From: Eubacterium sp.
Lineage (GTDB): Bacteria; Bacillota; Clostridia; Lachnospirales; Lachnospiraceae
Reading direction: 5' to 3'
Assembly (NCBI GenBank): GCA_017477505.1
Contig: JAFUVQ010000020.1
Location: 1 to 62,783 of the forward strand
DNA: 62,783 bases
Positions within the stretch are counted from its first letter, which is position 1; the number at the start of each line of letters is the position of its first letter. The notes under the pieces are model-generated. The model did not search any database. It was given only the letters and a program-made list of their open reading frames with translations, and was not told the DNA's origin. A program made the translations under genes and the position numbers. Shown here in pieces: positions 37,203-39,803 of this stretch.

Positions 37203-38135
37203 ATGGCTTCCATGAGAAGCATTAAAAGACGTAAAGAAAGCGTGCAGAGCACGCAGCAGATCACCAAGGCCATGAAGCTTGTTGCTACCGTTAAGCTGCA
37301 GAAGGCGAGAGCCAGGGTTGAGGCGAATACACCTTATTTTGAAATGCTTTATAAGGTTATGTGTTCCATACTTACGAAGACCTTGATCAGCACAAATCCA
37401 TTTCTTAATGAAAATGAAGGAGGCAAGACGGTCGTTATCGTTATGTCTTCAAACAGAGGACTGGCCGGAGGCTTTAATTCCAATATCGTCAAGCTTGTGG
37501 ATTCGGCCGGATTTGACAAAGATAAGACTGAGATATACGGTCTCGGAAGAAAGGGCATCGAAGGCCTCAGGAGAAAGGGCTTCAACATCGGCAAAGATGA
37601 TTCTGATGTTATAAATGATCCGATTTATGATGACTGTATCGCCATTACGAAGGAACTTGTAGAAGCCTATCTTGCCGGTGAGATAAAAGATATATACGTT
37701 GCATATACGGATTTTCAGAATACGGTCACACATGTGCCGACACTCCGAAAGATAATTCCTATCTCAATGGAGGACTTCCCTGAAGATATGCTGGATGAAT
37801 CTGATGTAGATAAGTCACTTACCATGAATTATGGTTCCACGGGACTTAACTGGAGTACTGAGCTCGCGGCTTTTGGAACGAGAATCAACTTTGACAGTCC
37901 TGAAGAGGATATACTCAGTCAGCTCATTCCGAAGTATATGACGAATATTATATACGGTGCATTTCTCGAATCGATTGCAAGCGAGAATGCAGCAAGGATG
38001 CAGGCAATGGATTCCGCTACAGAGAATGCCGATGATATGATCAGCCGTCTCTCATTGCAGTACAACAGAGCAAGACAGGGAAATATCACTCAGGAACTTA
38101 CGGAGATCGTTGCAGGCGCAGAGGCTTTGACCTAG
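37203..38135 (+). CDS. atpG: F0F1 ATP synthase subunit gamma
   Basis: 310 residues. The N-terminal MRSIKRRKESVQSTQQITKA and C-terminal ATENADDMISRLSLQYNRAR helices are the conserved coiled-coil rotor. It is preceded by GGCGGAGG. Its stop is followed at once by the hairpin array that separates it from atpD. Confidence 0.96.
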   Translation: MASMRSIKRRKESVQSTQQITKAMKLVATVKLQKARARVEANTPYFEMLYKVMCSILTKTLISTNPFLNENEGGKTVVIVMSSNRGLAGGFNSNIVKLVDSAGFDKDKTEIYGLGRKGIEGLRRKGFNIGKDDSDVINDPIYDDCIAITKELVEAYLAGEIKDIYVAYTDFQNTVTHVPTLRKIIPISMEDFPEDMLDESDVDKSLTMNYGSTGLNWSTELAAFGTRINFDSPEEDILSQLIPKYMTNIIYGAFLESIASENAARMQAMDSATENADDMISRLSLQYNRARQGNITQELTEIVAGAEALT

Positions 38136-38136
38136 G

Positions 38137-38347
38137 CATGATTGCGCAGCAATCATGTCCGAGCGTAGCGAGGATGCTCACGCGAAGCGTGACATAGCCC
38201 TGCGAAGCAGGGATATCATATGTGCGAAGCACATATGTGGCACCATAGTCCCGATTTCGAAGAAATCGAGGATCCGAGCGTAGCGAGGACACTCGTGCGT
38301 AGCACGAATATTCGGCGTAGCCGAATCAACACCGCGAAGCGGGGTTG
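38137..38347 (+). repeat. Array of ten GNA-triloop hairpins between atpG and atpD
   Basis: Ten short inverted repeats follow one another. Stem/loop positions: 38137-38157 (9 bp, loop GCA); 38158-38174 (loop GTA); 38178-38192 (6 bp, GAA); 38198-38212 (6 bp, GAA); 38217-38237 (9 bp, GAA); 38249-38272 (7 bp core, GAA); 38273-38289 (GTA, identical to the second); 38293-38307 (6 bp, GTA); 38310-38326 (7 bp, GTA); 38327-38347 (8 bp with one mismatch, GAA). Every loop is GNA closed by C-G, and nine of ten have GC-GNA-GC. Outer stem sequences differ while pairing is kept. d(GCGAAGC) is known as an exceptionally stable mini-hairpin. No open frame or promoter is evident in the 261-base gap; AGGAGA at 38383 serves atpD. 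Confidence 0.9.
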
Positions 38348-38384
38348 GTGCATAAGGCATGATTTCGAAGCAGATAATAAATAG

Positions 38385-39803
<1,419 letters not shown>

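Follow-up and report, generated by a model that had tools for sequence, protein, structure and literature searches.

The spacer between atpG and atpD in this Eubacterium genome (the source genome, G000) raises the question of what a run of ten small hairpins, packed into little more than 200 bp of an ATP synthase operon, represents and how its stems come to stay matched. The array occupies positions 38137-38347 of the window, i.e. of the whole 62,783-nucleotide stretch of DNA that was analysed, and begins directly 3' of the atpG stop codon. The ten GNA triloops named in the original prediction are all present at that place and in the numbers claimed (GCA once, GTA four times, GAA five times). 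Its further claim that every hairpin is self-complementary stands for eight of the ten, which have perfect stems of 4-9 bp (38137-38157, 38178-38192, 38198-38212, 38217-38237, 38252-38268, 38293-38307, 38310-38326 and 38332-38342), and fails for the other two (38158-38174 and 38273-38289), both of the form TCC-GA-GC-GTA-GC-GA-GGA, in which tandem G.A/A.G mismatches sit between two paired blocks.

Hairpins of the C(GNA)G type with stems of at least 6 bp occur seven times on the + strand of the window, all of them in the array, and not once on the - strand; 100 dinucleotide shuffles of the window average 0.22 such hairpins and never exceed 3. Within the array, stems of at least 4 bp number eight, against an average of 0.04 and never more than 1 when the array itself is shuffled 2000 times, and its predicted fold beats 200 of 200 shuffles both as DNA (z -6.9) and as RNA (z -6.3). 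Chance or low complexity as its origin is ruled out by these shuffles. The hairpin scan finds no array in the window beyond this one, as had been stated beforehand.

The description as ten repeats of one hairpin type did not survive comparison with other copies: the array is two adjacent units of a modular non-coding element of ~110 nt. The features are as follows.

37203..38135, + strand: ORF of atpG (ATP synthase gamma); ORF call and orthologues
38137-38248, + strand: unit A (subtype A), whole
38137..38157, + strand: unit A, X hairpin, 9-bp stem, loop GCA, its 5' half recurring at the right end; repeat and hairpin scans
38158..38174, + strand: unit A, P1 hairpin TCC-GA-GC-GTA-GC-GA-GGA with tandem G.A/A.G mismatch; sequence and alignment A2
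38178..38192, + strand: unit A, P2 hairpin, 6 bp, loop GAA; hairpin scan and covariation
38198..38212, + strand: unit A, P3 hairpin, 6 bp, loop GAA; hairpin scan and alignment A2
38217..38237, + strand: unit A, P4 hairpin, 9 bp, loop GAA; hairpin scan and covariation
38238..38248, + strand: unit A, 3' end TGGCACCATAG; sequence, compared with other copies
38249-38351, + strand: unit B (subtype B), whole
38249..38272, + strand: unit B, X hairpin TCC-CGATTTC-GAA-GAAATCG-A-GGA; sequence and hairpin scan
38273..38289, + strand: unit B, P1 hairpin with tandem G.A/A.G; sequence and alignment A1
38293..38307, + strand: unit B, P2 hairpin, 6 bp, loop GTA; hairpin scan and covariation
38310..38326, + strand: unit B, P3 hairpin, 7 bp, loop GTA; hairpin scan and covariation
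38327..38347, + strand: unit B, P4 hairpin CAAC-A-CCGC-GAA-GCGG-G-GTTG, 8 bp around an A.G mismatch; sequence
38346..38351, + strand: unit B, 3' end TGGTGC; sequence, compared with other copies
38355..38372, + strand: right-hand partial copy of X, 89% match to 38134-38151; repeat search
38397..39803, + strand: ORF of atpD (ATP synthase beta), the downstream gene; ORF call

Copies laid side by side show the parts in the order X, P1, P2-P4 and a 3' end TGG(C/T)RC, behind which the 5' half of X often recurs. P1 is near-constant across units (TCC-GA-GC-GNA-GC-GA-GGA), P2-P4 are three variable hairpins, and X is a locus-specific hairpin that varies among loci within one genome. In the alignment subtypes the following loops lie ~24, 40-44 and 59-66 nt from the start of the P1 core; in the remaining units the spacing is off by a few bases or one hairpin is missing. 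The outermost C-G of P3 is paired in unit A and unpaired in all the 12 other units of A2. In its 3' arm, X repeats the left flank in inverted form, a single element thus reading X, X', P1-P4, X, and tandem units are arranged X-unit-X-unit-X. When left and right flanks were compared by local alignment (score threshold 24), 28 of 61 usable units, some of them from the same locus, had flanking direct repeats and 33 fell below the threshold, which 4.2% of 717 left/right pairs from different loci reached. Several X hairpins share, on inspection, a common internal-loop design, AAGGAGGGGCCC...GGGAAGATCCCTT or CCACGGGATTGCCC...GGGAGGGCCCCGTGG, within an outer stem that varies.

The original prediction had proposed a search for similar clusters in this genome and its relatives, and they were found in both. 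In the source genome, the triple GCGNAGC-tip pattern gives 21 overlapping matches (reversed control 0), and blastn with the array gives 14 places at E up to 1 including the window, 12 of them at E below 1e-4 and the last two at chance level; units lie at about ten further places. A covariance model trained on 23 units, belonging to subtype B and to forms related to it, recovers 20 units in the source genome, both window units included, and detects units in 50 of the 61 genomes of the genus (e.g. 34 in G006 and 20 in G059). In the family outside the genus, 7 of 297 genomes have matches, all weak (about 30-37 bits), and the full ordered unit is absent from the seven extra-genus loci inspected, one per genome, an inspection that left out L300, L301, L304 and L307. 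Four extra-genus loci (L291, L293, L294 and L295) contain GNA or tandem-GA hairpins. The model E-values are rough, and the genus and family searches were both run with stricter filters; because the family search scored fewer candidates per genome, recovering 15 of the 20 units of the source genome, weak relatives elsewhere may be missed. The exact-pattern family search undercounts, missing for instance a genus member with nine model matches (G015), and the restriction to the genus therefore rests on the covariance-model searches. The triple-GNA pattern matches 42 of the 61 genus genomes, a figure that includes coding repeats and whose reversed control is not zero in every genome. As found so far, then, the element appears to be confined to one genus of rumen Lachnospiraceae. 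Relatives that carry it include AC2029, LC2019, UBA3732 and RUG12082; some come from rumen samples and several are incomplete assemblies.

Genome contigs outside the genus were also considered as carriers and rejected: GAGCGNAGCGA hairpins are common to the matches, which come from Akkermansia RGIG1721, Lentisphaeria, Sandaracinus, Enhygromyxa, Pseudomonas and others, and the unit is absent in the loci inspected (L113, L119 and L120 were left out). A plasmid or phage origin was rejected on the absence of blastn matches to the element in both the plasmid and the phage collection, and of the 16 stretches that a pattern scan picked out in viral contigs, the five inspected lack the unit.

Orthologous sites in related genomes differ in what they hold, as a comparison of insertion sites suggested by the original prediction made clear. 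The spacer upstream of fba contains elements in G000 and G059, with a different X in each, and is short, plain and empty in G003, the Fba protein of which is 97% identical to that of G000; this comparison covers G000, G003, G059 and G035, the start-codon pattern having failed at 15 of 19 loci. At the C41 site, elements are found in G000 only, G059 having none and G003 having two X-like repeats without the core. Between atpG and atpD there are two units in G000, one in G059 and a short remnant in G003, and the unit is seen at none of the other 17 of the 20 orthologous atp loci, L128 and L130 lacking a usable spacer. A different hairpin repeat occupies the atp spacer in L132-L134 (genomes G038, G034 and G016), where it starts with GTCATCCTGA and ends with GGATCT, and still other hairpins are found in L135-L137.

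In G036, near-identical copies of one unit are found at L158-L163 (contigs C7, C48, C68, C93, C178 and C266) and at further contig ends; that several of them lie at contig ends suggests a recent spread or burst by which the assembly was broken. In several of these copies P2 reads CGATGC-GAGCGGAGCGAA-GCAGCG, compared with CGATGC-GAA-GCAGCG at L084; a GA-GC step appears to have lengthened the hairpin tip, and such growth may be the origin of tandem-GA hairpins of the P1 type.

By inspection, elements land in spacers behind stop codons, behind -10-like boxes and beside tRNA genes, with a tRNA within 150 bp of 14 of 56 elements. ORFs, called crudely and automatically, flank 42 of the 56 on both sides. 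Where the two ORFs are codirectional, the GNA strand is sense in 22 cases and antisense in 7 (p = 0.008); the remaining 13 of the 42 have convergent or divergent neighbours. A -10-like box (e.g. TGGTATAATAG) stands directly before the elements L079, L081, L161, L170, L173, L177, L178, L179 and L193, and the right end of the element (e.g. TGGTACAATAG) resembles such a box on inspection. Since elements start behind these boxes and end in a box-like sequence, they may carry or copy a piece of a promoter. Two loci of G059, L173 and L177, have a longer repeat (~200 bp) that includes a -10-like box and an X hairpin of its own, and at L173 it is found in tandem with and without the P1-P4 core.

The original prediction that hairpin shape and loop are kept and stem sequence is not was borne out. 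After exclusion of 16 loci of other taxa, which the tRNA, loop, neighbouring-ORF and flank counts leave out too, and of near copies (102 cores reduced to 89), 89 non-redundant P1-anchored sequences remained, from which the rows of two alignments were picked by loop spacing. In A1 (MAFFT, 23 units), 91.1% of cells pair and 19 of 26 pairs vary on both sides; its covariation score of 0.510, reached by 0 of 500 shuffled alignments, compares with 0.180 for the shuffles and with at most 0.112 when the pairing is slid. A2 (13 units, subtype A) scores 0.415, again reached by 0 of 500, against 0.144 shuffled and at most 0.122 slid. Among copies differing at no more than 12 positions, changes on both sides of a pair outnumber one-sided changes in all four spacing classes (63:50 in A, 17:5 in B, 14:4 in C and 6:2 in B-short), the comparisons overlapping in sequences and thus not being independent.

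A wider pair count, anchored on P1 cores and loop positions and taken at stem offsets 2-6, drops units without exactly one CGNAG loop per range and covers 60 (P2), 55 (P3) and 52 (P4) of the 89 sequences. It gives 725 Watson-Crick, 13 G.T, 11 A.C, 59 G.A and 27 other cells, and the G.A mismatches, which are common, cluster at certain stem places. The 59 distinct tRNAs that these loci contain have stems with 1188 Watson-Crick and 91 G.U pairs, by comparison with which G.T is scarce in the element (Fisher p = 2.7e-8, with cells that are not independent). A second set of 17 units, from which 3 of 20 had been dropped as near copies, gives 163 Watson-Crick, 6 G.T, 7 A.C, 15 G.A and 14 other cells; its G.T share is not significantly below that of the tRNAs (p = 0.10) and the direction is alike. 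As G.T is not favoured over A.C, the tolerance of G.U usual for RNA is not shown.

Among 97 distinct hairpins that lie no more than 110 nt from a P1 core and have stems of at least 6 bp, the loop is C(GNA)G in 73, T(GNA)A in 5, a GNRA-type tetraloop in 2 and of the reverse-complement TNC kind in 2; the rarity of flipped loops agrees with arms being copied within a single strand. Given two or more G-C pairs beneath it, a GNA loop is described as forming an extraordinarily stable DNA mini-hairpin, and d(GCGAAGC), for which unusual stability had been claimed as established, does melt at 78 C and resist nucleases in the published account (PMC4686876). The ViennaRNA DNA parameters give no bonus to a GNA loop, and the extra stability therefore rests on this published work. 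Apart from the tRNAs, no Rfam family exceeded its gathering score in 16 loci. The suggestion that the array belongs to a hairpin-repeat class acting as ssDNA or RNA can be narrowed in part: comparison of the sequences makes DNA the likelier acting form and RNA the less likely one.

Our preferred reading, to which we would assign a probability of about 0.55, is that of a dispersed, non-autonomous DNA-hairpin element in which hairpin-primed intrastrand template switching keeps the two arms matched. We infer that the element would act as folded single-stranded DNA: when the strand is exposed, as lagging-strand template, as nascent strand or in a transcription bubble, each GCGNAGC tip would close rapidly to give a very stable mini-hairpin. 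In the course of replication, such a hairpin on the nascent strand could serve as its primer, with one arm as the template for its partner, and through such intrastrand switching both arms would change together, the stem staying perfect and the loop being kept. Hairpin-primed intrastrand template switching has been argued to correct stems while keeping stable loops (PMC8794818). Because an inverted X lies beside the left X and X is met again at the far end, insertion may likewise involve a strand switch where a fork has stalled, or else an ssDNA recombinase. If the atp operon is affected at all, this is probably a secondary consequence. Against the template-switch reading it counts that no mobilising protein was found (Y1 was the one searched), that 33 of the 61 units fall below the flank-repeat threshold and that the G.T deficit is not significant in the set of 17 units, and the two-sided changes could alternatively result from strong selection with fast compensation. 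The G.A mismatches at fixed positions are unlike the outcome of pure correction, so that selection or structural tolerance is also needed.

The array can also be read, doubtful as we consider this, as a structured RNA element that is dispersed and under selection in transcripts, acting in mRNA processing or stability, attenuation or protein binding. The strong stem covariation, the very stable RNA fold and the placement after stop codons, after -10-like boxes and among clustered tRNAs would all be expected of it, as would the 22:7 excess of sense copies. The sense strand of most genes is the lagging-strand template too, and the excess fits lagging-strand DNA as well as RNA. Against RNA stand the rarity of G.U, which is not above A.C in either set (13 vs 11 and 6 vs 7), triloops of the DNA-stable type with GNRA-type tetraloops in only 2 of 97 hairpins, and the lack of any Rfam match in the 16 loci. 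Copies also lie antisense, 7 between codirectional ORFs and some more beside tRNAs, and elements are missing at some orthologous sites of sister species. Random drift of one locally duplicated hairpin, functionless and immobile, would account for the identity of the two window P1 copies across 17 nt and is next to negligible: the original prediction had named the absence of other clusters together with drift-like stems as its refutation, and what was found is copies dispersed across genome and genus and covariation far over shuffles, by which drift is refuted.

Two other ways of moving such an element have to be set beside strand switching. An attC-like folded ssDNA recombination site, at which a recombinase would exchange strands at X and the TGG(C/T)RC end, is very unlikely, even though shape is conserved over sequence, the tandem X-unit-X-unit-X copies resemble cassettes, and the left neighbour is often like the right end of the element (the tRNA 3' end GGGCACA or the -10-like TGGTATAATAG, by inspection and uncounted); no recombinase is linked to it in a search that covered Y1, gene cassettes are absent in the units read, and X varies by locus within one genome. 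Slightly less likely again is a REP/BIME-like repeat mobilised by a Y1 (IS200/RAYT) transposase. The element is of the folded-ssDNA type, extragenic and dispersed, GCGNAGC tips are reported in some enterobacterial REPs (PMC2817692), and Y1 matches are found in 36 of the 61 genus genomes, two of them in the source genome. The genome counts nevertheless do not follow Y1: unit-rich genomes without a Y1 match include G005 (19 units), G037 (16), G008 (13), G057 (13) and G007 (10), some of them incomplete assemblies with G005 100% complete, G059 with its 20 units has a partial Y1 match with an internal stop, and G003 has eight Y1 matches and six units. None of 20 Y1 loci (1.2-2.8 kb each) has the GAGCGNAGCGA core or the unit, in a scan that used this core and left out the GAACGNAGTGA form of P1; plain GNA hairpins occur at three of them (one at L252, one at L258 and two at L259). 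On inspection, P1-P4 of A1 and A2 have no constant GTAG/CGTC tag, X lying outside these alignments. Y1 as the mover is thus unsupported by both the genome counts and the Y1 loci.

Going one step beyond the preferred reading, we consider only tentatively, and with the odds well against it, that this is a selfish or domesticated element living by the folding of ssDNA, with arms that rewrite themselves and a transposase-free copying by strand switching that leaves the landing sequence behind in inverted (X') and direct (X) form. If true, GNA mini-hairpins would rewrite their arms at replication forks, sequence being free and shape inherited. The element is a natural many-copy system for the inheritance of shape rather than sequence, with presence and absence between close species, and opens tests of whether template switching produces compensatory hairpin changes in pairs and of how short bacterial palindromic repeats spread without a dedicated transposase. 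It is also a warning that strong covariation alone is no proof of a functional RNA.

Among known systems, REP/BIME sequences are likewise short, extragenic, dispersed, imperfect palindromes that fold as ssDNA hairpins. The element differs from them in having four to five different hairpins in a fixed order and one orientation, a locus-specific X, direct repeats and strong covariation of its arms, and in lacking a constant GTAG/CGTC tag in P1-P4 and an adjoining RAYT in the loci examined. Judged from these sequences, it lacks two traits that define REPs, tag and transposase. The statement that the array does not match REP/BIME is thereby upheld, with no Y1/RAYT gene adjoining a unit in 20 loci and the GCGNAGC tip nonetheless occurring in some REPs. 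CGTC repeats, as far as the cited source describes them, are seemingly also without a dedicated transposase (PMC3733652). The exclusion of CRISPR and terminators holds as well: stems differ between hairpins and linkers are short, in place of identical repeats with regular unique spacers, and on inspection none of the ten window hairpins is followed by the T run of an intrinsic terminator.

Bacterial MITEs are small non-autonomous intergenic elements with presence/absence polymorphism. The element has presence and absence at orthologous sites in common with them (fba, C41, atp) and differs in its internal hairpins with covarying arms, neither a short target duplication nor terminal inverted repeats of the ordinary kind having been recognised; X' and the right-hand X are mutually inverted, and X is locus-specific. 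Mitochondrial double- and multi-hairpin elements (DHE/RHE) are dispersed multi-hairpin intergenic sequences that likewise differ between close relatives, and several sponge RHEs are described as having conserved stems and variable loops (PMC2800124), the opposite of what is seen in this bacterial element. Hairpins maintained by template switching (Monttinen and Loytynoja 2022, PMC8794818) are alike in the mechanism proposed here, in simultaneous compensatory changes and in the keeping of stable loops; that account concerns rRNA genes, whereas the element is a dispersed repeat made almost wholly of such hairpins. No prior description of these repeats was among the matches listed from the open-licence literature, and we file the element with the bacterial palindromic repeats.

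Hairpin repeats of the GTCATCCTGAGC...GCGAAGGATCTT type are widespread in other bacteria. One of them, in the same genus, occupies the G038 spacer between atpG and atpD, with fragments of it repeated in the G038 genome; the form found in G038 has GAGCGCAGCGA as a tip, a tandem GA plus GNA, and differs from the element in that the P2-P4 series was not seen.

A repeat of the GNA-tip type seems to be dispersed in Akkermansia sp. RGIG1721 too, to judge from one GAGCGTAGCGA/GAGCGAAGCGA double hairpin near three contig ends (L095, L099 and L114). In the myxobacterium Enhygromyxa salina, one locus (L107) has three tandem GAGCGAAGCGA + GCTGCGAAGCAGC blocks with GNA and tandem-GA hairpins. The source genome has a second atpG-like gene (G000:C23:67150-68079), 32% identical to the window atpG (G000:C54:37203-38132), which would point to a second ATP synthase operon, and 41 of the 61 genus genomes yielded only a distant kind of atpG.
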